From NCBI RefSeq assembly GCF_003185915.1, contig NZ_QHLZ01000001.1:729995-793994 (forward strand): a DNA stretch of 64,000 nt. The letters run 5' to 3'. Origin of the DNA: Arthrobacter psychrochitiniphilus. Lineage in GTDB: Bacteria; Actinomycetota; Actinomycetes; Actinomycetales; Micrococcaceae. The notes under the pieces were generated by a model that was given only the letters and a program-made list of their open reading frames with translations, had not been told where the DNA came from and did no database searches. A program made the position numbers and the translations under genes. Positions 18,185-33,276 of this stretch are shown here, piece by piece; the first letter of the stretch is position 1; each line of letters opens with the position of its first letter.

Positions 18185-19612
18185 CTAGACGCAGGCCCCG
18201 TCCACGTGTCTCCCCCAAGCCTGATGTAAGGCGAGGAGTTCAGCGGCGAGGGCTGGTTCGGCGTCGTACAGGTTGGTGGTTTCGGCAGGGTCCGTAGCCA
18301 GGTTGGTCAGGAAGAAGCCGCTGCCGGGCTCGGCGTGCTCCACCTCCCTGATGGCCGCCGCGACGGGCGAACCGGGCTCAACCCACACCAATTTCCAGTC
18401 CCCACGCCGCACAGACCACTGCCAGCCGCAGTCCCAATGCAGGGCGTCGTGACTGGATGTGGCCAGCAGATCGCGGCCGTCGCTGTGCGCATAGCGGGAC
18501 GGGTCCGCGCCGGCTGCAGCCATTGCCGTGGGCAGGATGTCCATGGAACTCGTGAGCCCGGCCAGCGTGGTGCCGGCCTCCACGTGCCCGGGCCAGCGCA
18601 GGAGGAACGGCACGCGCACGCCGCCTTCCCACAGGGTGTACTTTGTCCCACGTAGCGGCAGGTTCACACCGTAGTTGCAGGTGGATCCGCCATTGTCAGT
18701 GAGGTAGATGACGATGGTGTCCTCGGTGAGGCCCAGCTCATCGAGTTGGTCCAGGATGAGCCCAATTTGGGCATCCATGAGCTCCAGCTGGGCCAAATAG
18801 TAGGCGCGGCCGTTTTCCAGGTGCGGGCTGATGGCGCCGTCATACCAGTCAATGTACTCACCGGCGCCGGGGTTCCAGTCCTCGTAGGCGGGCAGCCCGC
18901 GCTTCTCCAGCTCCTCGGCGGGTAGCTGCCAGCAGAAGTTGTGGACGGCGTTGAACGCGACGGTGGCCAGGAACGGCGTCTGCGCGTGCTCGGCCACGAA
19001 CTGGCGGGTCCGCTCACCAATGGCGTCGGTCAGGAAGCCCTCGAGCTCCTGGGGCTCCTCACCGTTCCACAGCGGCTGGACAGCCATGGGGAATGCGGCC
19101 TCGCCGTACTCTGCCACCGACTCCTCCGAGTGGTGCAGGTAGTTGAGCCGGCCCATGGATTCCCCGGCCAGGCCGTAAAACGATTCGTCGTAGCCGTGTT
19201 GCGGAGGGGTGCCGCGGTGGCCGTGGTGTTCGCTGCCGTAATGCACTTTGCCGAAGTAGCCGGTGGTGTACCCCTCCGCGCGCAGCAGCTCGGCGATGGT
19301 GGGCACGCTCTCCGGGCCAATTTCTGAGTCCGTGAACCAGCGCGCACCCCATCGCTGCTGGTAGCTGCCGGCGGCAAGTCCCGCCCTGGACGGCGAGCAG
19401 ATAGGCGCCGTGACGTACGCGTTGGAGTACGAGGCGCCTTCCCGTGCCAGCCGGTCCATGTGCGGGGTAGCAACATCGTTCTGCACGCCGAGGATGGAGC
19501 GGTCGGCGTAGCCGTGATCATCGGAAATGATGACCATGATGTTGGGCTGGCTGGATGTGCGCGGCTGGTTGGGCTGGCGCTTACTGACGGGCTTGCTTAC
19601 AGACGAGGGCAT
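18185..19612 (-). CDS. Formylglycine-type sulfatase (family S1), cytoplasmic
   Basis: A 475-residue alkaline-phosphatase-fold sulfatase. The catalytic motif is ICSPSRAG with Cys72, which must be converted to formylglycine. Metal ligands appear in ISDDHGYAD and YLTDNGGSTCNYG. The start at 19612 has an aggag site; the earlier frame extension is non-conserved. No signal peptide follows: the first 22 residues are polar and basic, so the enzyme is probably cytoplasmic. It is 41 bases downstream of a TIM-barrel isomerase gene on the same strand and belongs to the polysaccharide locus. It probably removes sulfate from imported oligosaccharides; regiospecificity is unknown. Confidence 0.9.
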   Translation of the reverse strand: MPSSVSKPVSKRQPNQPRTSSQPNIMVIISDDHGYADRSILGVQNDVATPHMDRLAREGASYSNAYVTAPICSPSRAGLAAGSYQQRWGARWFTDSEIGPESVPTIAELLRAEGYTTGYFGKVHYGSEHHGHRGTPPQHGYDESFYGLAGESMGRLNYLHHSEESVAEYGEAAFPMAVQPLWNGEEPQELEGFLTDAIGERTRQFVAEHAQTPFLATVAFNAVHNFCWQLPAEELEKRGLPAYEDWNPGAGEYIDWYDGAISPHLENGRAYYLAQLELMDAQIGLILDQLDELGLTEDTIVIYLTDNGGSTCNYGVNLPLRGTKYTLWEGGVRVPFLLRWPGHVEAGTTLAGLTSSMDILPTAMAAAGADPSRYAHSDGRDLLATSSHDALHWDCGWQWSVRRGDWKLVWVEPGSPVAAAIREVEHAEPGSGFFLTNLATDPAETTNLYDAEPALAAELLALHQAWGRHVDGACV

Positions 19613-19653
19613 GGCTGCTCCTGTAGGTGTTGAATGAGGGGGCAAGTTCAGGG

Positions 19654-20505
19654 TTACGGAGCCAGTACGGCCTTGAGCGATTCCAATGCCTGTGCCACGG
19701 GCGGCAGCGTTGGATGCCAGGCACGTTCCCATTCAAGGGAAATCCATGGCTCGGTAGTACCGCGGGTGGCCAAAATTCCTGCCACCAGATCCCGCATCTG
19801 CGCCAGCGGCAGCTCTCCGGCGCCGGGCAGGGTGAGGCTCACCGCATTGGTGCCCTGCTGACGAACGCCGTCCTTGTATTGGGCGTAGGCCAGCGAGTCC
19901 GCGAGCAACTCGGCAGTGCGCGCGGGCGCCTCGTCGTAGCGCCACGGGTGCATCAGGTCCCAAATCACCTGGACAGGCGCGTCCGCGTCAACATGAGCCA
20001 GAATCCGCACTATATCCTGCGCCCGCGGGTGCGAATCGTGAGTTTCCAACAGCATGCTCACGCCACGGGCCCGGGCATGGGCGGCTGCAGCGTTGAGCCG
20101 GGCGGCACCGTGCTGATCCGCCGCCAGCAGTTCCGCGGACGGCTCCTCCCCCGGCCCACACGGCTCAACGCCGGCCCCCGGGAAAACCCTGACCTGTGCG
20201 GCGGACAGATCTGCGGCAAGGTCCACGGCGGCCAACAGTTCCGCGAGCACCGGATCGTTTACGCCCACCCCCTCGTGGGGGACGGCACAGACCCGGACGT
20301 AGCTGGCCAGGGCCAGGACAGTGATCCCGGCAGCGGCGAGGGTGCCCGCCACGTGGGCGCGCCCGGCCGCATCCATGGAAGGGAAGACGAACTCGCCGTC
20401 GGCGGCACGGAGCTCCACACCAGTTGCCCCCGATGCGTGGGCGGTGGCAATCACCTGTTCCAGAGAATCCCCGGGACACCCCAGGGTGGAAAACGCCAAC
20501 GGCAT
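19654..20505 (-). CDS. Sugar phosphate isomerase/epimerase family (AP endonuclease-2 TIM barrel)
   Basis: A 283-residue xylose-isomerase-like TIM barrel, beginning MPLAFSTLGCPGDSLEQVI at 20505, eight bases after aaagga. Typical metal-site segments are seen: LLETHDSHPRAQDIVRIL near residue 150, VIWDLMHPWRY, and ISLEWERAW near the end, which would supply Glu, His and Asp ligands. These enzymes isomerise or epimerise sugars or cyclitols. It is divergent from the sulfatase at 20657 with a shared control region and is followed by a co-directional sulfatase. It probably processes a monosaccharide released in this locus; the actual substrate is unknown. Confidence 0.82.
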   Translation of the reverse strand: MPLAFSTLGCPGDSLEQVIATAHASGATGVELRAADGEFVFPSMDAAGRAHVAGTLAAAGITVLALASYVRVCAVPHEGVGVNDPVLAELLAAVDLAADLSAAQVRVFPGAGVEPCGPGEEPSAELLAADQHGAARLNAAAAHARARGVSMLLETHDSHPRAQDIVRILAHVDADAPVQVIWDLMHPWRYDEAPARTAELLADSLAYAQYKDGVRQQGTNAVSLTLPGAGELPLAQMRDLVAGILATRGTTEPWISLEWERAWHPTLPPVAQALESLKAVLAP

Positions 20506-20553
20506 GGCAATCCTTTCATCGGCAAACAACGGCAGTCCCATTAACTCTAGTGC

Positions 20554-20567
20554 GGAAAACGCTTTCC
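20554..20567. promoter_or_regulatory. LacI-type operator ggaaaacgctttcc
   Basis: The pseudo-palindrome ggaaa-acgc-tttcc has the central CG and outer AT-rich arms of LacI/CcpA-type operators. It lies between the divergent isomerase and sulfatase genes, close to the isomerase start. Confidence 0.6.
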
Positions 20568-20588
20568 ATCAATGTTTGCGGTCTATTG

Positions 20589-20607
20589 AGTCCTCCTTTA
20601 TTCCTCT
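20589..20607 (-). promoter_or_regulatory. Shared locus operator, copy 1
   Basis: The minus strand reads agaggaataaaggaggact, 50 bases before the sulfatase start at 20657. It matches the sites at 22222-22240 and 27031-27049 in at least 14 of 19 positions, with agaggaata invariant. Confidence 0.65.
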
Positions 20608-20656
20608 GCCGGAACACTGGTATTGATAAGGGTTAAACACCTTTGAAGGAGCACTC

Positions 20657-22150
20657 GTGACCGGCCAGCCTGCCAGCAAGCCCAACATCATTTTCATCCT
20701 CAGCGATGATCAAGGCCCGTGGGCGCTGGGCTGCGCCGGAAATGATGACATCCACACTCCCGTGCTGGATTCCCTGGCCGCCAACGGCACCAGATTGGAG
20801 AATTTCTTCGCCGTCTCCCCCGTCTGCTCCCCCGCCCGTGCCAGCCTCATGACGGGGCAGATCCCGTCCCGACACGGCGTCCACGACTACCTCACCGGAG
20901 TGGAGGTCGGAGCCGGGGCCCCGGATTATCTGGCCGGGCAGGAAATCTTCACCGACGTGTTGGCCGATCACGGCTACCGGATGGGACTGTCCGGAAAGTG
21001 GCATCTGGGCGCCAATGACGCCCCGCGCAAGGGATTTGTGCACTGGTACGGACTAGAAGGCGGCGGCAGCCCGTATACCGGCGCCACCATGTACCGCAAC
21101 GGCGAGCGCGAGGAAACCACCACCTACCTGACCGACGCCATCACCGAGGACGCCCTCGCCTTCCTGGCACGGGAAGGTGCCCGGCGGCAGGAATCAGCTG
21201 CAGCCCGACCTGGAGAAGTGGAGCCGTTCTTCCTGGCTGTGAACTACACGGCACCGCACAAACCGTGGAAGGGCCAGCACCCCAAAGAGTTCGAGGACCT
21301 GTACGCGGACTGCGCCTTCGAGAGCTGCCCGCAGGAGGAGCCGCACCCGTGGCAGCCTACCGTGAACGGGGTGGCGATTGGCGGGGAACCGGACGTCCGG
21401 GGCGCCCTAGTGGGCTACTTTGCCGCCGTTAGCGCCATGGATGCGGCTATTGGGCGGCTCATGGCGCACCTTCAGGAGCTGGGCCTGCGTGAGGACACCC
21501 TTGTCATTTTCAGCAGCGACAACGGCTTCAATTGCGGCCACCACGGCGTGTGGGGCAAGGGCAACGGCACGTTCCCGCAGAACATGTACGACTCCTCTGT
21601 CAAGGTTCCTGCCATCTTCAACTGGCCCGGACGCATTGCCCCCGACCTTATCCGTCACGAGCTGCTCTCCGCGTACGACATCGCAGCCACCATCCTGGAC
21701 CTGGTCGGCGTGGACCCGGCACCGTTTGAAACGGGGCCCGGCTCATCCTTTGCCCCGCTGCTGCGTTCCGGTGGGGTGGCGTCCGGGAGGGCGGGAGACG
21801 CCGTCGTGGTTTATGACGAATACGGCCCGGTCCGGATGATCCGCACCCACGAATTCAAGTACGTGCACCGCCACCCGCACGGCCCGCACGAGCTCTATGA
21901 CCTGGTGGCCGACCCTGGTGAGCGCAGGAATTTAATGAACGACGCCGCCCCGCACCTTGCGCTGGTGGGTTTGCGTTCGCAGCTGGCTGGCTGGTTTGCC
22001 AAGCATGGGGTACCGGAGTTTGATGGCGCAGCGCTCCCGGTTGCCGGTGCGGGCCAGCACAGTCCGTTGCGGGCCGTGACCCTGGGGTCTGTGACAGGAG
22101 CCGCGGATCCGCTCGGCGCCTTCACGGGCCCCAATTGGGATGGTGTGTAA
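20657..22150 (+). CDS. Formylglycine-type sulfatase (family S1), cytoplasmic
   Basis: A 497-residue sulfatase starting with GTG six bases after aaggag. The motif VCSPARASLMTG places the catalytic Cys at residue 57. ILSDDQGPWALG gives the N-terminal metal aspartates, and FSSDNGFNCGHHGVWGKGN the later Asp/Asn and His. The N terminus is polar and leads straight into the first beta strand, so there is no export signal. It is the first gene of a rightward unit ahead of the PL8 lyase, with its own copy of the shared agaggaata operator. Likely substrate is a sulfated oligosaccharide product of the lyase. Confidence 0.9.
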   Translation: MTGQPASKPNIIFILSDDQGPWALGCAGNDDIHTPVLDSLAANGTRLENFFAVSPVCSPARASLMTGQIPSRHGVHDYLTGVEVGAGAPDYLAGQEIFTDVLADHGYRMGLSGKWHLGANDAPRKGFVHWYGLEGGGSPYTGATMYRNGEREETTTYLTDAITEDALAFLAREGARRQESAAARPGEVEPFFLAVNYTAPHKPWKGQHPKEFEDLYADCAFESCPQEEPHPWQPTVNGVAIGGEPDVRGALVGYFAAVSAMDAAIGRLMAHLQELGLREDTLVIFSSDNGFNCGHHGVWGKGNGTFPQNMYDSSVKVPAIFNWPGRIAPDLIRHELLSAYDIAATILDLVGVDPAPFETGPGSSFAPLLRSGGVASGRAGDAVVVYDEYGPVRMIRTHEFKYVHRHPHGPHELYDLVADPGERRNLMNDAAPHLALVGLRSQLAGWFAKHGVPEFDGAALPVAGAGQHSPLRAVTLGSVTGAADPLGAFTGPNWDGV

Positions 22151-22221
22151 GAAAAGAAAATCCCGTCGCGCTACGGGGAACGGCAGCGAGAAAAGCACTA
22201 TCCGAAAGGTTGGTCCCTACC

Positions 22222-22240
22222 AGTTGTCCTTTATTCCTCT
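22222..22240 (-). promoter_or_regulatory. Shared locus operator, copy 2
   Basis: The minus strand reads agaggaataaaggacaact, 79 bases before the PL8 lyase start. The 13 bases cctttattcctct are identical to the plus strand at 20595-20607. Confidence 0.65.
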
Positions 22241-22318
22241 CTTGCGCTGCTTCTGTACTGCTAGGTATCAAAGGGCCCTGCATCCAGTGCGGCGCCCGTG
22301 GAGTAAAGGAAACTTGCC

Positions 22319-24691
22319 ATGACGCATGGACTGACCAGACGGCACATTCTACAAGGCGCTGGAGCCTTGACCTTCGCCGGACTTCTTACGGGCGGTTTTG
22401 CTCCGCTGGCTCAGGCCGCGGAGACCGCCACGGCTCCGGAGCTTGATGCCTTGCGGGAACGCTGGGTTAATCAGATCACGGGCCGCAAGCTCATCACGGC
22501 CGGCGATCCCGAATTTGAAACAGCGCTAGTCCGACTAGACACCGAGGTGACCTCCTCAATTTCCAAGCTACTACCCGTCGGTAACCGTGTGCAGATTTTT
22601 TCGGACGCCGCGTTCAGTGCTGATACCCACATGGTCACCACGTACAAGCGGCTGGCTCAAATGGCTACGGCGTGGGCCACCCCGGGGTCAGCGCATGAGG
22701 GCAATGCCGAACTTCTCCATCATCTGCTGGCCGCTTTGGAAGATGGCAACAAATTGATTTACAACACCTCACAACCGGAATTCGGCAACTGGTGGAACTG
22801 GGAAATCGGTGTTCCCCGTCCCTTGGGTGATGCTCTGGCAATCTTGGGATCGCACGTCCCGGTGGAACTACTGGGACGGTATATGGCCGCCGTGGATCAT
22901 TTCATTCCGGATCCAACCAAGCAGTTCTCGGCAGAGCGCGGGCCTATCCTCTCCGAAGGAGCCAACCGTGTGGACATCTGCCAGGGCAGCATCATCCGCG
23001 CCATTGTTGGCCATGACCCGGCCCGGTTGGCACAGGCCATCAATGCACTGAGTCCGGTATGGCAGTACGTTACCAGCGGCAACGGATTCTTTGACGACGG
23101 CTCGTTTGTGCAGCACTCAACCATCGCGTACACGGGAACGTATGGGCTGGTACTGCTCAGTGGGCTTTCTAAATTGTTCTCGTTGCTCAGCGAATCCGAG
23201 CACGCCGTCTCCGATCCCAGCCGGGACATCCTGTTCAAGACCGTCGAGGATTCCTTCGCGCCGTTCATACACAATGGCCAGATGATGGATTCTGTGCGCG
23301 GCCGCGCCATCTCACGCACGCAGGAACGCAGCTACGACAATGGTGACATGGCCATTGAAGCGATCCTGTGGCTGGCCCGCGCTGTGGACCCTGCCACTGC
23401 CAAGCGCTGGCGCAGGCTCTGCCAGGGCTGGATCTCACGCAACACCTTTGAACACCCCATGACGGGGGCGTCGATCCCCCGCACAGCACTGCTGAAGGAC
23501 TTGGCAGCTGCACACGTAAGTCCACTCGCTGAGAATTCCGGGCACAGCTTCTTTGCAGGCATGGACCGCTCCGTTTACCGTGGAAGCGGCTGGGCGCTCA
23601 GCCTAGGCCTGTGCAGCAACCGCATCGCCTGGTATGAGTGTGGCAACGGCGAGAATGATTTAGGAGCCCAGACCGGTTCCGGCATGACCTACCTGTACAC
23701 GGGTAAAGCGGACCACTTTGACGACAATTTCTGGCCCACCGCAAATCTGGCCAAGCTACCAGGGACCACGGTGGACACCACCCCCCTGCCCCCACGAGTT
23801 GAGGGGCAGTGGGGAGAGCGTACGCCTGGGAACGACTGGACCGGAGGAGTCAGCCTGGGCACCAGTGGCGCTGTGGGCATGCACCTCCTCGCCCCGGGTG
23901 GCACCGGCATGCAGGCACGCAAGGCCTGGTTTTACGCCCCGGACATGGTAGTGGCGCTCGGGGCCGGCATCCACTCGCCATCAGAGGCTAGGGTGGAGAC
24001 CGTTGTGGAGCACCGCAATCTGGGCCCTGCGGGAGGCCAGAAGATCACCCTCGACGGCCGCAGAGTGGCTTCCGCAGCCGGCTCACCGAGCATCCACAAA
24101 AACCCGAAATGGGCCCACGTGGAAGGGACCGGCGGCTACCTGCTGTTGGGTAGCACCGCACTGACAGTGTTGCGCGAACAGCGCACGGGGGCGTGGAAAA
24201 ATATCAATAGCGGCGGCCCCGCAGATATCATCCAGCGTGAATACGCCACGCTGCTCATAGACCACGGAAAACAACCGAAAAAGGCCAGCTACGCCTACGC
24301 ACTGCTACCGGGAGCCACTGCCAAGACTACCGAAAAGGCAGCTCGCAAGGCACCGCGCATCCTGCGCAATGACACTGTAGGACAAGGCGTTGCGTTAGGA
24401 CACAAGGAATCCGCAGCAGTGTTCTGGCAGGCAGGTTGGGTAGGTAACATTTTTGCCAATGGACCCGCGTGTGTACTTTATTCGGGTAATCCAGGTCACG
24501 GCCGTCTCGCGGTAGCTGACCCCACCCATGCTGCCGAGTACTTGGCGATCACGCTCAAGGGCACAAAATACCGCCGCGTCACGGGTGGAACAGGCGCCAC
24601 TCTCTCACGCGATGCAGCTGGCAACACGGTGGTCACAGTACGGGTGGCAACACTGCTGGGCCGGACAGTGGAGCTGAGCCTGCAGCGCTAA
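22319..24691 (+). CDS. Tat-exported polysaccharide lyase family 8 (hyaluronate/chondroitin lyase-like)
   Basis: A 790-residue PL8 enzyme, which cuts uronate-containing polymers by beta-elimination. The N terminus has a twin-arginine signal (LTRRHILQGAG, then a hydrophobic stretch ending in AQAAE). The catalytic set is intact and spaced as in streptococcal hyaluronate lyase: Trp158-Trp159 in NWWNWEIG, Asn216 in EGANRVD, His266 and Tyr275 in VQHSTIAYTGTYG, and Arg329 in RGRAISR. The gaps of 58, 50, 9 and 54 residues equal those remembered for the pneumococcal enzyme. The C-terminal half is beta-rich as in the family. Surrounding sulfatases favour chondroitin sulfate or another sulfated glycosaminoglycan; xanthan lyases are also PL8, so the substrate remains an inference. 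Confidence 0.93.
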   Translation: MTHGLTRRHILQGAGALTFAGLLTGGFAPLAQAAETATAPELDALRERWVNQITGRKLITAGDPEFETALVRLDTEVTSSISKLLPVGNRVQIFSDAAFSADTHMVTTYKRLAQMATAWATPGSAHEGNAELLHHLLAALEDGNKLIYNTSQPEFGNWWNWEIGVPRPLGDALAILGSHVPVELLGRYMAAVDHFIPDPTKQFSAERGPILSEGANRVDICQGSIIRAIVGHDPARLAQAINALSPVWQYVTSGNGFFDDGSFVQHSTIAYTGTYGLVLLSGLSKLFSLLSESEHAVSDPSRDILFKTVEDSFAPFIHNGQMMDSVRGRAISRTQERSYDNGDMAIEAILWLARAVDPATAKRWRRLCQGWISRNTFEHPMTGASIPRTALLKDLAAAHVSPLAENSGHSFFAGMDRSVYRGSGWALSLGLCSNRIAWYECGNGENDLGAQTGSGMTYLYTGKADHFDDNFWPTANLAKLPGTTVDTTPLPPRVEGQWGERTPGNDWTGGVSLGTSGAVGMHLLAPGGTGMQARKAWFYAPDMVVALGAGIHSPSEARVETVVEHRNLGPAGGQKITLDGRRVASAAGSPSIHKNPKWAHVEGTGGYLLLGSTALTVLREQRTGAWKNINSGGPADIIQREYATLLIDHGKQPKKASYAYALLPGATAKTTEKAARKAPRILRNDTVGQGVALGHKESAAVFWQAGWVGNIFANGPACVLYSGNPGHGRLAVADPTHAAEYLAITLKGTKYRRVTGGTGATLSRDAAGNTVVTVRVATLLGRTVELSLQR

Positions 24692-24716
24692 CCACCCGGA
24701 CATAACACGCTCCACT

Positions 24717-24782
24717 GAAGACGGGGCCAACCCGCGAAACGGCTGCATAAATACACCCTTCTCGCGGGGTGGCCCCGTCTTC
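24717..24782. terminator. Bidirectional terminator between lyase and oxidoreductase
   Basis: Long near-perfect arms: gaagacggggcca, one mismatch, then cccgcga, pair with tcgcggg and tggccccgtcttc on the other side of a roughly 24-base loop. It separates the convergent PL8 and Gfo/Idh genes. Confidence 0.8.
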
Positions 24783-24824
24783 ACTCCACCCCGTATTTGC
24801 GAAAGCTCAGCGTACTTGAAAAGC

Positions 24825-25814
24825 TCAGCGCACCAACGCCGGTGTCAACTCAACGGACTCACCGCTCTGAGCAGATTCGTAGGCGGCCAGCACCAGCTCG
24901 ACCACGTGCTTGGCGTGCGTGCCACTGACGGCTGGCGCAGCCCCGCGCACGGCAGCGTGAAAGTCAGCGAGCTGGGCCGTGAAGGCATTCTGAATATCAT
25001 CTGCCGAGCTTGTGTGCAGGACTGTGCGGACGCCGTCGATCTTCATGAAAGTACCTCTGCGTGGATCAGCAGTGATGGTGCCCCGCTCGCCCACCACGAG
25101 TACTTCATCGATGTTTTCCGGAGTGTCGGAGACAATAGTGATGCGTAGCTGCACATCATTGGCGAGGCGCAATTCCATGGTCCCGTCAGTTTCAACGGGT
25201 GCGCCGAATCGGTTCAACGTGCTCGAGGTGATCCGCACGGCGGGCGCACCGCCAATCCACAAACTCCGGTCCAGGCAGTGTGCACCGATGTTGATAAAGG
25301 CGCCGCCGCCGGAAACAGCTTTATCAAAGAACCAGTCTGGGCGGGACCCTGGACGGTAGTCGGTGCTTCGGTAATCGTGGATCATCAGCACCCGGCCCAG
25401 GACACCGCTCTGAAGCGCCGCCATGAGGGCCAGCTTTTCAGCCATGAAGTGCTGGATCATCCCCACCACCATGACTACCCCGGCTGCCTCGCAGGCCGCC
25501 TCCATAATCTTGGCGTCCTCAAGCGTGGTGGCCATAGGCTTTTCCACCAGCACGTGCACGCCATGGGATGCGGCAGCCACCACCATGTCCTTGTGCAGGC
25601 TGTGCGGGGTGTTAATAACAACCGCGTCCACCACCCCCCCAGTCAACATTTCCTGATAGTCGGTGTAGACGCTCGCCCCCCAGGGTTGGGCAACGTTGCC
25701 GGCAGTTTCCGCGTTCAGGTCACAGACCGCGGTGAGGGTTAGCCCCGCAATGTCCGCAATTCCTTGTGCATGAAATCCGGCCACCGCACCTGCCCCAATA
25801 ATTCCCAAGCGCAT
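24825..25814 (-). CDS. Gfo/Idh/MocA family oxidoreductase
   Basis: A 329-residue NAD(P)-dependent sugar oxidoreductase. It starts MRLGIIGAGAVAGFHAQGI at 25814 with a Rossmann GxGxxAxxH pattern, and has the family lysine motif in HVLVEKPMATTLEDA near residue 95. The C-terminal alpha/beta domain contains GGAFINIGAHCLDRSLW with the usual catalytic His. The start was set by the fold and an agagag site; the longer frame overlaps the upstream regulator. It lies 16 bases after the GntR/LacI regulator gene on the same strand and is co-transcribed. It probably oxidises or epimerises a sugar or uronate from this locus. Confidence 0.88.
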   Translation of the reverse strand: MRLGIIGAGAVAGFHAQGIADIAGLTLTAVCDLNAETAGNVAQPWGASVYTDYQEMLTGGVVDAVVINTPHSLHKDMVVAAASHGVHVLVEKPMATTLEDAKIMEAACEAAGVVMVVGMIQHFMAEKLALMAALQSGVLGRVLMIHDYRSTDYRPGSRPDWFFDKAVSGGGAFINIGAHCLDRSLWIGGAPAVRITSSTLNRFGAPVETDGTMELRLANDVQLRITIVSDTPENIDEVLVVGERGTITADPRRGTFMKIDGVRTVLHTSSADDIQNAFTAQLADFHAAVRGAAPAVSGTHAKHVVELVLAAYESAQSGESVELTPALVR

Positions 25815-25830
25815 GATTGACTCTCTTTCA

Positions 25831-26982
25831 TTAGCGTTGTTGTAGTTTGTGGGCGCGTGTGTCAGCGCCGTGTTTAGCTCCACAGGAGTCCCTGATAACC
25901 AGCCTGGGCCGCAGCCGTACCTGATGGACGGGGCAGTCGTCACCTTCTACCAGTCGGCGCAGCAAGATTTCAGCCGCCATCTTTCCCATCCGATGCTTGG
26001 CCGGTGCAACCGCTGTCAGGGGAACTTCAGCCAAATCAGCGAGCTCATCATCATAAGAAACCAAAGCCAAGTCATGCGGGATTGCCACCCCTGCCCGCCT
26101 AGCCGCCGCCTCAAGCAAGGCCGCCTCCCTATCACCAAAGACCAAGGCCGCTGCTGAACCGCTGGAGAGTACTTCTTGGAGGAGTTGCTCCGCCGCCCCT
26201 GATTCCCACTCCGACTTCAACGCCCGGCGCACCAGAGGAGTGAAGCCCAGATCTGCCGCCGCACGCTTATAACCTTCCACAATGGCTGCCTCGGTTGGCG
26301 TGTTGGATCTGGTCAGGAGGGAAACCGTTGGGTGCCCCAACTCCAAAAGGTGGGTGACGGCGTCGTATGCACCACCTTGATGGTCCGAGCAAACATGCTC
26401 AGTCCTATCCCCTGGGCCCAAATCCATCAGACTACGCTCGAGCAAAACCACCGGGACATTGAGCGAACTCAATTCACGCACCCGCTGTTTCGGATCCGCA
26501 ATCCCTGCCAGTGTGGGCACCAGGATCAGCCCGTCAACCCCAGAGTCGATCAGGAATTGGATACTTGAATCTTCCCGCGCAGGATCATAGTTGTAGGTAG
26601 CCAAGCGCAAGCTGACATCGTGGCTTGAGAGCGTTTCCTCAATGCCTTGCAGCACCCGTGGGTAATAGAGCTGAGTGTCTGGCAGGAGAACACCCACCGT
26701 AAAGCGAGAACGTCGCCGGGCAGGCTGGCGCTCAGCTACAAAGCTACCTGCGCCTTGGCGCCGTACTACGAACCGTTCCGTTTCCAGTTCCTCATAGGCC
26801 CGGCGCACAGTGGTCAGAGACATGCCGGTCTCGGCCGCCAGCTGAGCCTCGGTGGGCAACTTGGCACCCACGGCCCAGGTCCCAGCCAGTATGCCGCGGC
26901 GCAGATCGCCCGCCAGAGCTTGAAATTTCAGCTCTCTGGTGTCCGCGTCCCGAATCCTTTTACCCTGTGATGTGTTCTTCAA
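25831..26982 (-). CDS. GntR/LacI hybrid transcriptional regulator (AraR-like)
   Basis: A 383-residue regulator with an N-terminal GntR winged helix (LRRGILAGTWAVGAKLPTE, then TTVRRAYEELETERFVVRRQG, residues about 20-85) joined to a periplasmic-binding-protein-like sugar sensor (FTVGVLLPDTQLYYPRVLQG to VALVSYDDELADLAEVPLT). The TTG at 26982 was preferred because ggagaggg precedes it and the frame upstream runs into the operator region at 27031-27063. AraR-type regulators repress sugar operons until an intracellular sugar binds. Position between the oxidoreductase and the ABC transporter, plus four agaggaata-like sites, makes it the likely regulator of the whole locus. Confidence 0.88.
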   Translation of the reverse strand: MKNTSQGKRIRDADTRELKFQALAGDLRRGILAGTWAVGAKLPTEAQLAAETGMSLTTVRRAYEELETERFVVRRQGAGSFVAERQPARRRSRFTVGVLLPDTQLYYPRVLQGIEETLSSHDVSLRLATYNYDPAREDSSIQFLIDSGVDGLILVPTLAGIADPKQRVRELSSLNVPVVLLERSLMDLGPGDRTEHVCSDHQGGAYDAVTHLLELGHPTVSLLTRSNTPTEAAIVEGYKRAAADLGFTPLVRRALKSEWESGAAEQLLQEVLSSGSAAALVFGDREAALLEAAARRAGVAIPHDLALVSYDDELADLAEVPLTAVAPAKHRMGKMAAEILLRRLVEGDDCPVHQVRLRPRLVIRDSCGAKHGADTRAHKLQQR

Positions 26983-27030
26983 TGTTCCCTCTCCAGCTAC
27001 TGCTGCGCTTGAGTCTGCCAAAGGTATAAG

Positions 27031-27063
27031 AGAGGAATATATGAGTACTTTGCATATTCCTCT
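27031..27063. promoter_or_regulatory. Shared locus operator, copy 3, as an inverted pair
   Basis: agaggaatat (27031-27040) and atattcctct (27054-27063) are exact reverse complements across 13 bases. The plus strand 27031-27049 reads agaggaatatatgagtact, aligning with the sites before the sulfatase and lyase. It lies in the divergent region between the regulator and ABC transporter genes. Confidence 0.7.
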
Positions 27064-27162
27064 TGTAGCCTGCACCGCACCTTTGCGTCACTACCCATTA
27101 AATGCGCGAGTTATGGGTCAACGCCTTGAGGGTAGCGGTAAAACTAAGATAAAGATAACTCT

Positions 27163-27193
27163 AAGTACTCATTGAATCCTATCTTTATTCACT
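27163..27193. promoter_or_regulatory. Partial fourth operator before the ABC transporter
   Basis: aagtactcat is the reverse complement of 27041-27050, and ctttattc (27183-27190) repeats the core of the other sites. It lies 80-110 bases before the binding-protein gene. The match is incomplete. Confidence 0.4.
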
Positions 27194-27272
27194 GTTTGAG
27201 TATTCTCACTGGCCCGTGACGCAGAGCACAACTCCACGCAGGGCACAATTACTTCTAGCAAGGGTGTACGCA

Positions 27273-28586
27273 ATGACAACCAAATTCCGTTTTGCACGGA
27301 CACTGGCCGTGATGGCCGGCGCAGCCTTGGCACTCTCCGCCTGTGGTGGCGGCACCAACGGTTCAGCAGGAGATGGCGGCACAGAGGGCGGTACATTGTC
27401 GTACTGGTCCATGTGGAAAGAGGGCGAGCAGCAGCAACTGATTATTGCCCGCGCCATTAAGGATTTTGAAGCTGAAACAGGCGCAACTGTCAACGTCCAG
27501 TGGCAGGGACGTTCCAACGTCCAAAAGCTCGTCCCCGCTCTGAATACCAACAATGTCCCTGACATTGTTGATGGCTCCTACGCCAAGCTGGCCCCTATTC
27601 TGGGCGACACCGGACAGGCTCTTCCCTTGGGCGATGCTTATGCCGCTGAGGTTGAGGGCACCAAAGTTTCCGATCTGATTCCGAAAAAGTACCTTACTGC
27701 GAACAACATTCTCGATGCTGACGGGACGCCCTGGATGCTGCCCTACAGCCTCACATCGGATGGTTTCTGGTTTGACGCAGCGCAGCACCCCGAGCTGGAG
27801 ACCGCTCCGCCGGCATCATGGGATGACTTCATTGCACTATTAGATAAGTACAAGGCAGAGGGCAAGGTTCCGCTGGCAGCCGACGGCGACATTGGCGGCT
27901 ACAACTCCATGTGGTTCACCACCGCACTGGTGCGCACCGACGGAGCAGGCTCCTTCGCGAAGGTGGTCCAGGATAAGACAGGCGCCGCTTGGGATGCTCC
28001 GAATGTCTTGGCCGCAGCCAAGAGGGTTGAACAAGTTGTCAAGGGCGATTATCTGATCAAGGGCTATAACGCCAGCAAGTGGCCTGCCCAGCAGCAGGTT
28101 TGGGCCACGGGTGGAGCCGAGCTCATGCTCAACGGTTCCTGGATCCCGACGGAAACAGGTACTTACGCTTCCGAAGGTTTCAAATTCTCATCCTTTCCAT
28201 TCCCTGCCGAAGCCGGACAACCAGCATCGGTACGCGCAGACTTTGGCGGTTGGGCCATTCCCAAAAAAGCCAAGAACCCGGAACTGGCTCAGAAACTGGC
28301 CACCTTCTTGCTGAAGAAGGACTACCAGGACGCCTACGGCACCGAAGCTAAAGTCCTGCCTATCCGCACCGATGCAGCCACCTCTCCGGAAATGGCATCT
28401 GTGAAGAAGTCCATTGACGGGGCCAAAGAAATCTACCTACAGAACGACGGCGTCACGGCCCCCGGCTACGTTGAGAAAGTCTTCTGGCCCATCAACGATG
28501 AGCTGTTCCTTGGCAAGATCAACGCTGGAGAATTCGTCCAAAAGATGAAAACCGCAACGGTTCAGTACTGGAAGGACAACAGCTAA
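27273..28586 (+). CDS. ABC sugar transporter substrate-binding lipoprotein
   Basis: A 437-residue CUT1-type (family 1) solute-binding protein starting at 27273. A lipoprotein signal is clear: MTTKFRFARTLAVMAGAALA then the lipobox LSAC, followed by a Gly-rich tether. The mature part has LSYWSMWKEGEQQQ and a C-terminal region with APGYVEKVFWPINDELF typical of sugar-binding proteins. It should capture oligosaccharides released by the PL8 lyase. It is the first gene of an operon with two permeases and two sulfatases; permease 1 begins at its stop codon (taatg). Confidence 0.92.
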   Translation: MTTKFRFARTLAVMAGAALALSACGGGTNGSAGDGGTEGGTLSYWSMWKEGEQQQLIIARAIKDFEAETGATVNVQWQGRSNVQKLVPALNTNNVPDIVDGSYAKLAPILGDTGQALPLGDAYAAEVEGTKVSDLIPKKYLTANNILDADGTPWMLPYSLTSDGFWFDAAQHPELETAPPASWDDFIALLDKYKAEGKVPLAADGDIGGYNSMWFTTALVRTDGAGSFAKVVQDKTGAAWDAPNVLAAAKRVEQVVKGDYLIKGYNASKWPAQQQVWATGGAELMLNGSWIPTETGTYASEGFKFSSFPFPAEAGQPASVRADFGGWAIPKKAKNPELAQKLATFLLKKDYQDAYGTEAKVLPIRTDAATSPEMASVKKSIDGAKEIYLQNDGVTAPGYVEKVFWPINDELFLGKINAGEFVQKMKTATVQYWKDNS

Positions 28587-29542
28587 TGTCACGCACCACA
28601 ACCCGCCGCTCCCTTTCCGCGGCAGCAGCCGCGGAGAGGGGGCAGGGTGGCAGCAGCATTGACCGTCAGCGGCGCAAGCTTCTTGTACCGTTTGTTGGCC
28701 CCGCCTTCATTGTCTACACGCTTCTGTTCATTATTCCCGCCATCGGCGCGGCCTGGATCAGCTTGCATGAATGGGCCGGCTCCGGCCCCATGAAGTTTGT
28801 AGGTGTGAAGAACTACATCAGGGTATTCCAAGACGATCTGTTTATGAAGTCCTTTGGCAACACACTCCTGCTGTTGTTCGTGGTTGGTGCTGCCATCTTC
28901 ATCCTTGCCTTCGCCATGACGTTGGTGCTGCGGGATATGGCCGGGAAAAAGATTGTCCGCAACGTCATCTTCTTCCCGCACCTGATCAATGCCCTCGTTT
29001 TCGGCGTACTGGCCGGCTTCATCTTCAACCCGGGCGGCATGGTCAACACTCTACTGAAGCCTTTTGGTGTCACTGAACCACCCGCTTGGCTGGCCCAAGA
29101 CAACATCTTCCCGCTCATCATGGCCACACTGGTGGCCACCACCACCGGTTATTTCACCACCATCTTGATGGCTGGTGTAGATCGCATTCCTCCTTACTAC
29201 TACGAGGATTGCGCCCTGGCCGGCGCCAATGCATGGCAGCGTCTGAGGTATGTGATTCTGCCCCTAACCTGGGACGTGTTTGGCACCTGCGCTGTGCTGT
29301 GGACCATCTCCTCCGTGAAGATCTTTGAGATCATCTGGGTATTCGGCGGCAGCAGCGGTGCCGGTATTCCACCCACACAGAGCTGGACCACCGCCGTGTA
29401 CACGTACGTCACGGCCTTTTCCGGCCAGTCCACACCTGCCTATGGGGCGGCCACCGCCTCGGCCATCATCTCTTTGGCCTTGGTATCCGTCCTCGTGGTG
29501 TTCCTGCGCCGCGCTATGCGCCGTGACGCCGTTGAATTCTAA
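28586..29542 (+). CDS. ABC sugar transporter permease (MalF-like)
   Basis: A 318-residue membrane protein whose ATG overlaps the stop of the binding-protein gene by one base. Six hydrophobic helices follow an N-terminal polar arm of about 35 residues. The EAA loop that docks the ATPase is seen as EDCALAGANAWQRLRYVILPLTW near residues 210-232. It is the MalF/UgpA-type partner of the next gene. The locus has no ATPase gene; CUT1 systems in Gram-positives commonly use a shared MsmK/UgpC-type ATPase encoded elsewhere. Confidence 0.92.
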   Translation: MSRTTTRRSLSAAAAAERGQGGSSIDRQRRKLLVPFVGPAFIVYTLLFIIPAIGAAWISLHEWAGSGPMKFVGVKNYIRVFQDDLFMKSFGNTLLLLFVVGAAIFILAFAMTLVLRDMAGKKIVRNVIFFPHLINALVFGVLAGFIFNPGGMVNTLLKPFGVTEPPAWLAQDNIFPLIMATLVATTTGYFTTILMAGVDRIPPYYYEDCALAGANAWQRLRYVILPLTWDVFGTCAVLWTISSVKIFEIIWVFGGSSGAGIPPTQSWTTAVYTYVTAFSGQSTPAYGAATASAIISLALVSVLVVFLRRAMRRDAVEF

Positions 29543-29552
29543 GGATCAGCCC

Positions 29553-30497
29553 ATGTCTACTCTCACCGCACCCGACCAGGTACCGAATCAGGCACCGGAT
29601 TCACGCACCGATACGCCCGGGAAGAAGCGCAGCAAGAACTACCGCGGCGTCAGCCCGGCCCTGCGCGCTGAAAGCAACATCATCCGCAGCATCGGCGTGT
29701 TCTTGTTGTGGGCTGTGGTTGCCGTCAGCATCGCCATGCTGCTGTGGATGGTCCTGCAGGCATTCCGCGACACCCGTTCTATCCTTTCCAGCCCTTGGGG
29801 AATGCCGGAAAGCCTAGACTTCTCCAACTTCGTGCGGGCCTGGACTGTTGGTGACTTTGCCACAGCAACGTTCAATTCTGTCATCACCACTGCTGTGTCC
29901 TCGTTTATAACGGTGGCTCTTGCAGCACCCGCGGCGTACTACCTCAGCCGTGTTGAAAGCCGCCTGACCAACGGGCTGAGCCTGTACTTCATCCTTGGCT
30001 TGGGTATCCCGGCGCAGGTCATCTTGATCCCGCTGTTCGTGATGCTGAACAAGGTTTACCTGACGGACAGCCTGATTGGGCTGAACTTGGTCTACATTGC
30101 CGGTTCCATGCCGTTCACCGTATTCCTGCTGACGGCGTTCTTCCGCAGCCTGCCCATGGAGATGGAGGAGGCCGCCGCTCTCGACGGCGCCACTGCCCTG
30201 CGCACCTTCGTCCAGATCACCCTCCCACTGGCCAAGGGAGGCATCCTGACCGCATTTGTTCTGCAGGTGGTAGCGCACTGGAATGAAACGCTACTGGCGC
30301 TGACACTGATCCAGTCCACCGAAAAGTACACCCTGCCCGTTGCGTTGATTTCCTTTGTGCAGCAGCAAACCTATTCAGGTGCTGATTGGGGCGGACTCTT
30401 CGCCGGCCTCTGCATCGTAGTCCTGCCCATGCTGGCCATCTACATCTGGCTGGGACGCCGGCTCACGGAGGGCCTGACCTTGGGAATGGGCAAGTAG
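29553..30497 (+). CDS. ABC sugar transporter permease (MalG-like)
   Basis: A 314-residue permease starting at 29553, ten bases after permease 1, with aaggatcag upstream. The frame is open for 76 codons before this ATG, but that part is the shadow of permease 1. Six hydrophobic segments are present, and the EAA motif is EEAAALDGATALRTFVQI followed by TLPLAKGG. The polar N terminus of about 45 residues ends near the first helix (GVFLLWAVVAVSIAMLLWMV). It ends one base into the next sulfatase gene, so translation is coupled. Confidence 0.92.
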   Translation: MSTLTAPDQVPNQAPDSRTDTPGKKRSKNYRGVSPALRAESNIIRSIGVFLLWAVVAVSIAMLLWMVLQAFRDTRSILSSPWGMPESLDFSNFVRAWTVGDFATATFNSVITTAVSSFITVALAAPAAYYLSRVESRLTNGLSLYFILGLGIPAQVILIPLFVMLNKVYLTDSLIGLNLVYIAGSMPFTVFLLTAFFRSLPMEMEEAAALDGATALRTFVQITLPLAKGGILTAFVLQVVAHWNETLLALTLIQSTEKYTLPVALISFVQQQTYSGADWGGLFAGLCIVVLPMLAIYIWLGRRLTEGLTLGMGK

Positions 30498-31960
30498 TGC
30501 CCACTCCCAACCTGCTGTTCATTGTCGCCGACCAGTTCCGGGCCATGTGCTTGGAGCCGGGCGGCGACCCTGTTTCCACCCCTAATCTGGATGCCATGGC
30601 CTCCGACGGCGTATCCCTGGCCCACGCTGTCAGCAGCTACCCGGTGTGTAGTCCGCACCGGGCCATGATGATCAGTGGGCAATATCCGGACGCGAACGGG
30701 GTCACCCACAATGTGAACTCGCAGACCGCCACTTGGGGCGTTGGCTTACGCCCGGATGCCCCCTCGTGGGCTTCGGCACTCAGGGATGCCGGATACAACA
30801 CCGGCTACATTGGCAAGTGGCATTTGGAGGCCCCAGTGCCCGAGGATGCCATCCACGGCACCGGTCCGCTGGAAGATGGGCGGTACTGGGATGCTTGGTC
30901 GCCGCCGGATCGCCGCCACGGCTTTGATTTTTGGTATTCCTACGGCTGTTGCGATGAGCACCTCACCCCTCACTATTGGACCTCCGACGCCGGACGGCAC
31001 CAGCGCACTAACGTCGCCGGGTGGTCAGCCGCCCATGAAACGGACGTGGCCATTGGCTTTCTAGAACGCGCCGCATCCATGGCCTCCGGGGATGCGGACC
31101 GGACGCCCTTTGCCTTGGCTGTTTCCTGGAACCCACCGCACCAGCCCTACGATCAGCTGCCGCTGGTGCACAACACCAGCTACGGCGCCCTTCCCCCCGC
31201 AGAGCTATTGAACCGTCCCAACGTGGACCTCGACTCCCCCGCCGGGCGCGAGGCCGCCACTATTGCACCCCTCTATTACGCAGCCGTTTCTGCCATCGAT
31301 GCGCAGGTGGGACGGTTGCTGGCAACCCTGGACGCTCTGCATCTGGCGCAGGACACACTCGTCATTTTTACCTCGGACCACGGCCAGCAAATGGGGAGCC
31401 AGGGCCTTATCTACAAGAATGTGCCGTACGAAGAGTCCATGCGGATACCGTGGGTCATGCGCTGGCCCGGGCGCCTGACCTCCTCTGCCGCGGACAGTGT
31501 GGGGATATCCAGTGTGGACATAGCACCTACTCTGTTGGGACTGCTCGGACTGGGCGAGCAAGTCCCCGCAGCAATGCACGGCACCGATGTCTCGCCTGCG
31601 TTACTCGCCCACGGTGGCGAGGCCCAAGGGGGTGGCGCTCAGGGGGGTGAAGCTGGGAATCTGGGTACGCCGTCGTCCTTGTATTTCTACTACCCGCGCA
31701 ACAGTTCCGATGTAGATATCCGGGGGTTGCGCACAGCCTCCACCAAGTTCATTGCCCGTTTCCAGCCAGCCTCCGGGCTGTCCACAGAGCTGTTTGATCT
31801 GGCCGGAGATCCATTCGAATTAGAGAACATCACCGATCCCTCCGCAATCCGGCACTGGGCGGGGAGCCTTTCAAACGCCTTGGCAGCGGCGGGCCATTCA
31901 TGGAACGGCGACCAAGCACTGAAAGTATTGGCAAACACTAAGTTGGGAGTGCAACTATGA
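30497..31960 (+). CDS. Formylglycine-type sulfatase (family S1), cytoplasmic
   Basis: A 487-residue sulfatase starting with GTG that shares a base with the permease stop codon. The motif VCSPHRAMMISG gives catalytic Cys51; FIVADQFRA and FTSDHGQQMGSQG supply metal ligands. No signal peptide. Around residue 375 there is a Gly/Ala/Gln insert (GGGAQGGEAG) not expected in the family core. It overlaps the next sulfatase by four bases (atga), so the two are co-translated and may act in sequence on the same imported sugar. Confidence 0.9.
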   Translation: MPTPNLLFIVADQFRAMCLEPGGDPVSTPNLDAMASDGVSLAHAVSSYPVCSPHRAMMISGQYPDANGVTHNVNSQTATWGVGLRPDAPSWASALRDAGYNTGYIGKWHLEAPVPEDAIHGTGPLEDGRYWDAWSPPDRRHGFDFWYSYGCCDEHLTPHYWTSDAGRHQRTNVAGWSAAHETDVAIGFLERAASMASGDADRTPFALAVSWNPPHQPYDQLPLVHNTSYGALPPAELLNRPNVDLDSPAGREAATIAPLYYAAVSAIDAQVGRLLATLDALHLAQDTLVIFTSDHGQQMGSQGLIYKNVPYEESMRIPWVMRWPGRLTSSAADSVGISSVDIAPTLLGLLGLGEQVPAAMHGTDVSPALLAHGGEAQGGGAQGGEAGNLGTPSSLYFYYPRNSSDVDIRGLRTASTKFIARFQPASGLSTELFDLAGDPFELENITDPSAIRHWAGSLSNALAAAGHSWNGDQALKVLANTKLGVQL

Positions 31961-33276
31961 ACATCCTTCTCATCATGGCCGACCAGTTTGCTGCCCACGC
32001 ACTGGCACGCAGCCGTTCCACCGACGCGCATTTCAAAACGCCCAACCTTGACCGGTTAGCGTCTGTCTCCACGGTTTTTACCCAGGCCTACACGCCGTTT
32101 CCGCTGTGCGTGCCGGCCCGCAGCTCCATGATTACCGGAAAATATCCGCACCAGCTGGGCATCATGAACAATAAGTCTGCAGATGCTGCTCCGCGCTCCG
32201 AGCCTGGCCACGGTTCACAGTCACTTGGCCATTGGTTCACCGCGGCGGGCTATGACTGTGCCTACGCAGGCAAATGGCATGCCCTCCAGGCCAGCGCTTC
32301 CGTGAATGACGGCTTTGCCCCCATCCACCCCTTCGGCGACGAGGGTCTGGTGGAGGCGTGCCATGACTGGCTGGGGCAGCGTAGTGGCGAACGCCCGTTC
32401 CTACTGGTGGCATCCTTTGACGATCCTCACACCATTTGCGAATACGCCCGTTCTCAGCCCATGCCTTACGGGGATGTGCCAGCCGCCGCCGTTGCTGAGG
32501 CTCCCCCGCTGCCGGCTAACTTCTATAAGGCGCCCTACGCCTCTGAGGCACCAGCCATGGAACAGGTTGCAGCGGCACGTCTCTACGGCACGGCTGGATT
32601 CAGTCCCGATGACTGGCGCAGCTACCGCGCCACCTATGCCGCACTGGTTCAGCGCGTTGACCAACGCATTGGGCAGCTGCTGGACGGGATTGATGTGGCG
32701 AGTACCTCCGTCATATTTGTCAGTGACCACGGTGACGGCGACGCGTCGCACGGCTGGAACCAAAAGACTGCCCTGTACCAGGAATGCATTAAGGTGCCAT
32801 TTCTGGTGCAGGTGCCAGGGCGGCCCGCAGCGGTTGTCACTGAGCCTGTGGCAGCCGTGCTGGGGCTGCTACCTACGCTGTGCGAAATCGCGGGAATACA
32901 GGTGCCGGAGGGCCTCGCCGCACCATCAGCACTGCAGCGGGACGGGAATCCGGTGGTGGTGGAAACAGCGTTCGCGGACGCAGCAGCATTGCCCGGTGCA
33001 CGAACATCGGGCCGGGCGCTCATCCTGGGGCACTGGAAATACACGGTATACGGGTGGGGACAATACCGAGAGCAGCTCCATGATCTGGCCGCCGATCCGC
33101 AAGAGCAGCGCAACCTGGCCGTGGAAAATGCTTTCGCGCCGGAGCTCGAACGCATGCGGACGGAGCTATTGCGCTGGTGTGAGGAGACTGGGGATACGGC
33201 ATTCCGCAAGCGTCTGGTGCTGCCGAAAACGGCGCCGGCTGGAAAACATCAAGAGATCTTTCGGGTTCCCTACTAG
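31957..33276 (+). CDS. Formylglycine-type sulfatase (family S1), cytoplasmic
   Basis: A 439-residue sulfatase, last gene of the transporter operon. LCVPARSSMITGKYPHQLG gives catalytic Cys51 in the C-x-P-x-R motif. Metal ligands appear in LLIMADQF and FVSDHGDGDASHGWNQK. The start is the ATG of an atga overlap with the previous sulfatase. There is no export signal. It is the shortest of the four and differs most from the others in the middle third, which suggests a different position specificity on the sugar. Confidence 0.9.
   Translation: MNILLIMADQFAAHALARSRSTDAHFKTPNLDRLASVSTVFTQAYTPFPLCVPARSSMITGKYPHQLGIMNNKSADAAPRSEPGHGSQSLGHWFTAAGYDCAYAGKWHALQASASVNDGFAPIHPFGDEGLVEACHDWLGQRSGERPFLLVASFDDPHTICEYARSQPMPYGDVPAAAVAEAPPLPANFYKAPYASEAPAMEQVAAARLYGTAGFSPDDWRSYRATYAALVQRVDQRIGQLLDGIDVASTSVIFVSDHGDGDASHGWNQKTALYQECIKVPFLVQVPGRPAAVVTEPVAAVLGLLPTLCEIAGIQVPEGLAAPSALQRDGNPVVVETAFADAAALPGARTSGRALILGHWKYTVYGWGQYREQLHDLAADPQEQRNLAVENAFAPELERMRTELLRWCEETGDTAFRKRLVLPKTAPAGKHQEIFRVPY

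Follow-up and report, generated by a model that had tools for sequence, protein, structure and literature searches.

A predicted chondroitin-sulfate locus of Arthrobacter psychrochitiniphilus without GH88, and a conserved Gfo/Idh dehydrogenase as its candidate replacement

In other bacteria, the delta-4,5-uronate end left by a polysaccharide lyase is removed by a GH88 enzyme, according to excerpts of two studies (PMC5430744, PMC12269599). How might it be removed where no such enzyme is found? The question is raised by a locus at positions 18185 to 33276 of a 64,000-nucleotide stretch of Arthrobacter psychrochitiniphilus DNA (contig NZ_QHLZ01000001.1, 729,995 to 793,994; the whole stretch is called the window), which encodes a lyase of family PL8, a sugar importer, four sulfatases, a xylose-isomerase-like TIM barrel, a Gfo/Idh/MocA-type dehydrogenase (Gfo/Idh protein) and a regulator. 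In this genome, rated 100% complete, there was no match to PF07470, which we take to cover both GH88 and GH105. The original prediction, made from the sequence of the stretch, had missed that neither the locus nor the genome has a detectable unsaturated glucuronyl hydrolase of these families, and it is this absence that makes the Gfo/Idh and TIM-barrel genes the interesting part. Our tentative answer, held with a little less than even confidence on the basis of sequence comparison and analogy, is that the Gfo/Idh protein (24825-25814) replaces GH88/GH105 by NAD-dependent chemistry in a predicted chondroitin-sulfate locus.

To place the locus among its relatives, 395 genomes of the same family were searched with the lyase; the homologues carry names from Arthrobacter, Specibacter and Pseudarthrobacter, which points to Micrococcaceae. 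Matches at E 1e-30 were found in 44, which comprised 23 with an AC-type lyase (48 to 100% identity; the copy in genome G192 is broken) and 21 with only other PL8 types (29 to 38%). PF07470 was absent from 22 of the 23 AC-type genomes. KduI (PF04962) had no match in the A. psychrochitiniphilus genome and was also absent from 12 more of the 23. Since a GH105 protein used as a tblastn query missed the GH88 genes of Paenibacillus, we scanned open reading frames (ORFs) for W-S/T-R-G, which we take as the GH88 signature, and confirmed matches by Pfam. As a control, 15 non-actinobacterial PL8 loci (L044-L058) were scanned, eight of which had a signature ORF within ca. 10 kb, all eight confirmed with PF07470. 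In the neighborhoods of the 23 AC-type lyases the same scan found none.

The Gfo/Idh gene, on the other hand, was there in all of these AC-type genomes. It lies within ca. 7 kb of the lyase in 23 of 23 (54 to 100% identity), while in the 21 genomes with only other PL8 types no match at E 1e-30 exceeded 37% identity (Fisher 5e-13 for the association, the genomes not being independent). At the level of the order, a search of 396 genomes at E 1e-80 yielded two matches outside the family. Around the first (G463) we found PL8, the TIM barrel, sulfatases B and C (lettered as in Table 1), the regulator, a binding protein and a permease; the second (G711) has a binding protein, a permease, the regulator, sulfatases B and D and a DUF2264 protein, with no PL8 in the 40 kb covered. 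PF07470 was not detected in G711 and gave a sub-threshold match in G463. In another order, a 25-kb stretch of Nonomuraea gerenzanensis holds the importer, the regulator, the Gfo/Idh protein (45%) and sulfatase B (60%), together with a GH29-like stretch and a heparinase II/III-type protein. Sulfatase B accompanies the Gfo/Idh gene in all three distant genomes and in 22 of the 23 AC-type loci, the exception (G231) being reduced to the lyase, importer genes, regulator and Gfo/Idh gene.

In 11 of the 23 loci the Gfo/Idh gene adjoins DUF2264, whose product is a relative of the beta-D-glucuronic acid dehydratase 9o4u. The glucuronate dehydratase of Bacteroides caccae makes a delta-4,5-glucuronate (delta-4,5-GlcA) end for GH88, as stated in passages of PMC12269599. 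To judge from the genes present, the likely maker of the delta-uronate varies (PL8, DUF2264 or the heparinase II/III-type protein) while the Gfo/Idh protein stays, which argues that the latter acts on that end; this is our strongest argument. With somewhat more reserve, the Gfo/Idh protein might define a previously undescribed family, the NAD-dependent unsaturated uronyl hydrolases, as an actinobacterial counterpart of GH88 downstream of three delta-uronate routes (PL8 lyase, heparinase-type lyase and glucuronate dehydratase). No published NAD-dependent unsaturated uronyl hydrolase appeared among the literature matches listed.

The protein itself has the NAD-binding and C-terminal domains of its superfamily by Pfam (PF01408, PF22725) and in the predicted model, in agreement with its first annotation as a Gfo/Idh oxidoreductase. 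In an alignment of 47 homologues, all 47 have K93, N176-x-x-x-H180 and an Arg-rich RSTDYRPGxR motif, which the Nonomuraea protein shares; at the position of Asn176, Asp is found in two Gfo/Idh proteins from a Paenibacillus locus that does have GH88. Among the best 60 of 91 PDB matches and by Foldseek, the nearest structures are 7x2y, WlbA and DgpA, first place by sequence as well as by Foldseek rank going to phthalate cis-4,5-dihydrodiol dehydrogenase. The hydroxyl oxidized by this enzyme sits on a ring, next to a double bond and not far from a carboxylate. The GH188 structures 8qc3 (9e-16) and 8qc2 (2e-15) come after other dehydrogenases in the same best 60, where no GH109 entry was recognized.

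Two known activities suggest how such a protein could work. YjhC hydrates 2,3-ene N-acetylneuraminic acid with NAD+ recycling and a proposed keto intermediate (excerpts of PMC7315737), and, where the sulfoquinovosidase is missing, GH188 fills its place through a transient oxidation at C3, Arthrobacter included (passages of PMC10755693). In the same passages, Glu189 of ArSqgA, four residues before the catalytic His193, holds the C4-OH; the window protein has Asn176 before its invariant His180, a difference that, in our reading, would fit a proposed substrate with no C4-OH. In the scheme we propose, the lyase, exported by the twin-arginine translocation (Tat) pathway, would release disaccharides of delta-4,5-GlcA and N-acetylgalactosamine (GalNAc) with the sulfates still on, as expected from its family. 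Their uptake, still intact, would be the task of the CUT1 importer, served by an ATPase whose gene lies outside the locus, and the four signal-less sulfatases, with their predicted specificities, would remove the sulfates inside the cell. The Gfo/Idh protein, with bound NAD+, would then oxidize the allylic C3-OH of delta-4,5-GlcA to an enone, water would add at C5, the ring would open and GalNAc would leave, and the ketone would be reduced again to give 4-deoxy-L-threo-5-hexosulose uronate (DHU) with no net redox change; a variant of this step would be elimination to comenate (5-hydroxy-4-oxo-pyran-2-carboxylate). Finally, and this is the weaker part, the TIM barrel may isomerize DHU in place of the absent KduI.

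Several observations weigh against this scheme. All 23 AC-type genomes belong to one family, so that the association is partly shared descent, and neither GH188 nor YjhC is among the closest relatives of the Gfo/Idh protein. The PF01081 (KDPG-type) aldolases, of which A. psychrochitiniphilus has three, are missing in 5 of 25 genomes, and thus the DHU-to-pyruvate end is not secured. Locus L043 of Arthrobacter sp. B2a2-09 has a lyase of 57% identity and no Gfo/Idh protein of this type in 21 kb, and PF07470 is absent from its genome too, so another route may exist. The TIM barrel is retained in two genomes (G239 and G291) that have no such Gfo/Idh gene. The remaining points would fit an ordinary locus in which the profile overlooked a diverged GH88-like or other hydrolase, the Gfo/Idh protein having some minor product such as a GalNAc derivative as its substrate. 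Seven Paenibacillus GH88 proteins score only 55 to 74 bits against PF07470, so a diverged hydrolase could escape it; G374 has a partial match of 35.5 bits ca. 190 kb from the locus; and the other 7 of the 15 control loci, for which only the locus stretch was scanned, also had no GH88-signature ORF nearby, so that a locus lacking it is by itself nothing exceptional. GH88 is often, but not always, found next to PL8, and the stronger fact is its absence from the whole genome. Given that the genome has zero PF07470 candidates, that the signature scan was empty in 23 of 23 AC-type neighborhoods and that the Gfo/Idh protein is kept with the same type of locus in distant genomes, we consider an overlooked hydrolase unlikely. 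DUF2264 was also considered for this role and rejected: all that A. psychrochitiniphilus has is a paralogue (43%), and by eye neither a lyase nor a sulfatase was recognized among the ORFs of the surrounding 13 kb; two of the 23 genomes (G024 and G192) have no DUF2264 at E 1e-5; and the characterized relatives create the double bond instead of removing it.

The part of the TIM barrel is harder to judge. In 19 of the 23 AC-type genomes its gene is no more than 10.5 kb away from that of the lyase, and E166-x-H168, D195, Q221 and E270 are conserved in 46 of 46 aligned homologues. By sequence it had no match in the PDB, and the fold of the predicted model matches isomerases, epimerases, hydratases and 3-keto-glycoside eliminases without discriminating among them. 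Of the "TIM-barrel isomerase" initially annotated, the barrel (PF01261) therefore stands and the isomerase label is not secured, the fold being compatible with several activities; from sequence and model, it may replace KduI, act as a 3-keto eliminase or be a hydratase. A role as KduI replacement may be indicated by the presence of KduI in 4 of 4 genomes without the barrel versus 5 of the other 19 (p 0.014; 6 of 19 with the weaker match in G221). However, three of those four belong to a genus in which 15 of 15 PL8 genomes have KduI, so the comparison is confounded by genus, another point against the scheme.

A different division of labor would have both enzymes act after the cut, the TIM barrel and the Gfo/Idh protein replacing KduI-KduD on DHU, while an unrecognized hydrolase encoded elsewhere splits the disaccharide. 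The missing KduI and the three PF01081 aldolases of the genome would suit it, and non-homologous isomerase-reductase pairs are known in the use of glycosaminoglycans (GAGs; excerpts of PMC12838403). We nevertheless find it improbable: the Gfo/Idh protein is kept in KduI-bearing genomes (9 or 10 of 23) and in four genomes with no TIM barrel nearby, so the two genes are not an obligate pair, and neither PF07470 in the genome nor the signature scan of the locus produced a hydrolase candidate. Very doubtful is a two-enzyme 3-keto route, in which oxidation of C3 by the Gfo/Idh protein would be followed by elimination of the glycosidic bond by the TIM barrel, with comenate and GalNAc as products, for although E166-x-H168, D195 and E270 resemble the spacing of eliminase metal ligands and His (as far as described in excerpts of PMC10628242) and DgpB-DgpC and AtHYD are among the structural matches of the barrel, plain isomerases score as high or higher in a fold common to isomerases, the metal-binding His of eliminases is apparently Gln221 here by strand order, the barrel is not nearby in 4 of 23 loci, and no known use of comenate was found among the literature matches listed.

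The rest of the locus bears on the substrate. Residues 39 to 790 of the PL8 protein align with the chondroitin AC lyase 1rwa, which we take to be chondroitinase AC of Arthrobacter aurescens (ArthroAC), and hyaluronate and xanthan lyases rank behind; a xanthan lyase was rejected at 344 bits versus 823. Asn183, His233 and Tyr242 of ArthroAC, presumably its catalytic residues, align with identical residues N216, H266 and Y275. The three Lyase_8 domains and these residues bear out the PL8 lyase of the original prediction, and the twin-arginine start it described is visible as MTHGLTRRHILQG...LAQA, as it is in 20 of the 24 PL8 starts compared, the window included. The NCBIfam cut-offs for the chondroitinase-AC equivalog (1000 bits) and HylB (1350 bits) were both missed, at 169 and 375 bits, so "chondroitin AC type" means closest to the solved ArthroAC, not to the NCBI model.

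All four sulfatases carry PF00884 and the Cys-x-Pro-x-Arg motif, and with the starts read from the sequence (19612, 20657, 30497 and 31957) the cysteine falls at residues 72, 57, 51 and 51, just as first reported. Sulfatase A has the exo-4S carrageenan sulfatase 6prm and then the GalNAc-6-sulfatase 7stt as best PDB relatives, and sulfatase B the GlcNAc-6-sulfatase 5g2v and 7stt. For sulfatase C the best PDB matches are the chondroitin 4-O-sulfatases 6j66 (3.4e-96) and 6s21, along with 2qzu and 8di0, and for sulfatase D they are 3b5q and the 2-O GAG sulfatase 5g2t (ca. 1.5e-36). The specificities would accordingly be 4-O, 2-O and probably 6-O. Choline sulfatase was discarded, the TIGR03417 cut-off being 433 bits and the four proteins reaching 116 to 178. 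By eye, none of the four has a signal-like hydrophobic stretch before the first catalytic strand, ca. 2 to 25 residues from the start; they look cytosolic, as had been claimed from their lack of signal peptides. The sulfatases of relatives with short called starts likewise had no visible signal, over-long ORFs being uninformative in this respect. A formylglycine-generating enzyme (FGE) for their maturation is present in the genome (best 6e-74), and in G098 an FGE sulfatase-maturase gene lies inside the locus itself (L141, 13980-15035).

The solute-binding lipoprotein and two permeases described earlier have the corresponding Pfam matches, with no ATPase gene among the locus genes. Against the PDB, the binding protein gave 15 weak matches to sugar-binding proteins, uninformative on the substrate. 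The substrate is likely to be chondroitin or dermatan sulfate, because GAG 4-O- and 2-O-sulfatases are the nearest relatives of two of the sulfatases; with the AC-type lyase, this supports the chondroitin sulfate suggested at the outset, hyaluronan being a less likely candidate. Among the loci of 22 relatives, 9 also hold a chondroitinase-ABC-like PL8, 5 a GH29-type fucosidase and 11 DUF2264 (counts from sequence clusters, with Pfam run on one or two members of each), none of which is in the window locus. The GH29-type genes, inside the chondroitin loci L133, L134, L135, L136 and L139, suggest fucosylated chondroitin sulfate as the substrate of these relatives.

Every gene named in the original prediction is open at the coordinates given there and has a Pfam family match, so that its inventory holds (Table 1), including the regulator with GntR and LacI-type sensor domains. 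We corrected the starts of the Gfo/Idh gene (25814), permease 2 (29553) and possibly the TIM barrel (20505); the regulator ORF is open from 27075, and its start was set from relatives. The genes form five probable transcription units, namely TIM barrel plus sulfatase A, sulfatase B alone, the lyase alone, regulator plus Gfo/Idh, and importer plus sulfatases C and D, the last with stop/start codon overlaps at 30497 and 31957. The first unit diverges from sulfatase B and the regulator unit from the importer unit, each pair across a promoter region. A 14-bp element, TCCTTTATTCCTCT, has three matches in the 64 kb at two or fewer mismatches versus 0.12 expected, all at promoter regions, and at least one match at this stringency in 21 of 22 relatives' loci (the exception is L146). 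Because it is present at all three promoter regions, the element suggests that the locus is one regulon, probably under the GntR/LacI protein.

Table 1. Features of the predicted chondroitin-sulfate locus (positions in the window)
Feature	Position	Strand	Evidence and remarks
S1-type sulfatase A, Cys72, CSPSR	18185..19612	-	PF00884 7.7e-47; apparent operon with TIM barrel
Xylose-isomerase-like TIM barrel	19654..20541 (start possibly 20505)	-	PF01261 6.3e-22; model pLDDT 94.9
Promoter element TCCTTTATTCCTCT, copy 1	20594..20607	+	Exact; divergent TIM barrel/sulfatase B promoter region
S1-type sulfatase B, Cys57, CSPAR	20657..22150	+	PF00884 2.1e-44
Promoter element TCCTTTATTCCTCT, copy 2	22227..22240	+	Exact; lyase promoter region
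PL8 lyase, chondroitin AC type, Tat-type signal	22319..24691	+	PF08124/PF02278/PF02884; 1rwa 823 bits, E 1.5e-246
Gfo/Idh/MocA-type dehydrogenase	24825..25814	-	PF01408 3.3e-28, PF22725; proposed NAD-dependent unsaturated uronyl hydrolase
GntR-headed regulator, LacI-type sensor domain	25831..26982	-	PF00392 1.1e-16, PF13377 2.8e-28
Promoter element, copy 3	27031..27044	-	Two mismatches to TCCTTTATTCCTCT; divergent regulator/importer promoter region
CUT1 solute-binding lipoprotein, LSAC lipobox	27273..28586	+	PF01547 1e-25
ABC permease 1	28586..29542	+	PF00528 5e-07
ABC permease 2	29553..30497	+	PF00528 1.6e-19
S1-type sulfatase C, Cys51, CSPHR	30497..31960	+	GTG start overlaps permease stop; PDB 6j66 3.4e-96
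S1-type sulfatase D, Cys51, CVPAR	31957..33276	+	PF00884 8.7e-37; ATG overlaps stop of C

Some of the related loci deserve mention in their own right. In G239 and G291 (L150 and L151) the TIM barrel has the same flanks and no lyase, importer or Gfo/Idh gene in 20 kb, and these appear to be remnants, of which that in G239 also keeps sulfatase A. The broken lyase gene of G192 (G192:C1:364546-365308, L149) sits in a locus that is otherwise largely intact. At 8720-11077 of L043, the AC-type PL8 (57%) adjoins different importer genes and a 655-aa protein with no Pfam match. G711 (L187 and L188), with DUF2264 and no PL8, possibly lives on saturated GlcA-GalNAc oligosaccharides. An Arthrobacter-type locus was also present in NZ_JADHDY010000004.1 (L042), titled Sporosarcina beigongshangi, a species name that is probably wrong.

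The use of lyase-cut GAGs is normally drawn through GH88, and a conserved locus predicted to yield such disaccharides where no GH88 is recognized, and in this genome no KduI either, points to a second biochemical solution. If the proposed activity of the Gfo/Idh protein is true, it would be a new enzyme family, would explain the use of animal matrix by Arthrobacter-like bacteria and would correct the annotations "oxidoreductase" and "phthalate 4,5-cis-dihydrodiol dehydrogenase." Wider work on "alternative glycan breakdown" has reportedly come from Nasseri and colleagues. A. aurescens chondroitinase AC (1rw9, 1rwa), which aligns with residues 39 to 790 of the window lyase and has the same catalytic residues, is known as a single enzyme. 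A Bacteroides-type polysaccharide utilization locus (PUL) has SusC/SusD and secreted sulfatases; here, the Pfam families matched by the 11 locus genes include no SusC/SusD pair, and the sulfatases have no visible signal peptides. B. caccae PUL25 (BcPL35, BcGDH and BcGH88), to whose BcGDH the DUF2264 proteins of the relatives are related, is such a Bacteroides PUL and uses GH88 for the cut, unlike the window locus. Similar in layout is the cluster of Streptobacillus moniliformis (Smon0120-0127), with a secreted PL8 lyase, a binding-protein ABC importer for sulfated unsaturated disaccharides and a predicted cytosolic sulfatase, as described in passages of PMC5430744; its cluster has GH88 and one sulfatase, the window locus four sulfatases and no GH88. 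The outside cut, import and inside desulfation that had been put forward for this locus thus fit its sequence (Tat-type lyase, sulfatases that look cytosolic), but the layout is already known in kind.

Among enzymes, YjhC and RgNanOx are Gfo/Idh proteins too, the former hydrating an enol-ether carboxylate; going by excerpts of PMC7315737 and PMC7535918, they act on sialic acid and not on a glycosidic uronate, and the sequence is distant (6o15, 5e-17, in the best 60 of 91 PDB matches). P2B11 glucuronide-3-dehydrogenase (8tdi, named as in the PDB listing) and DgpA are also in these best 60, and DgpA oxidizes C3 of glycosides (abstract of PMC11239390); both use saturated glycosides and separate eliminases, unlike our proposal. 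In the GH188 sulfoquinovosidases (SqgA, 8qc3), a Gfo/Idh-type protein stands where a classical glycosidase is missing and works by transient C3 oxidation (excerpts of PMC10755693), although on another substrate and with a moderate match to the window protein (E 9e-16, in the best 60 of 91). Compared with all of these, what is new is a wiring that lacks GH88 and has a conserved Gfo/Idh protein.

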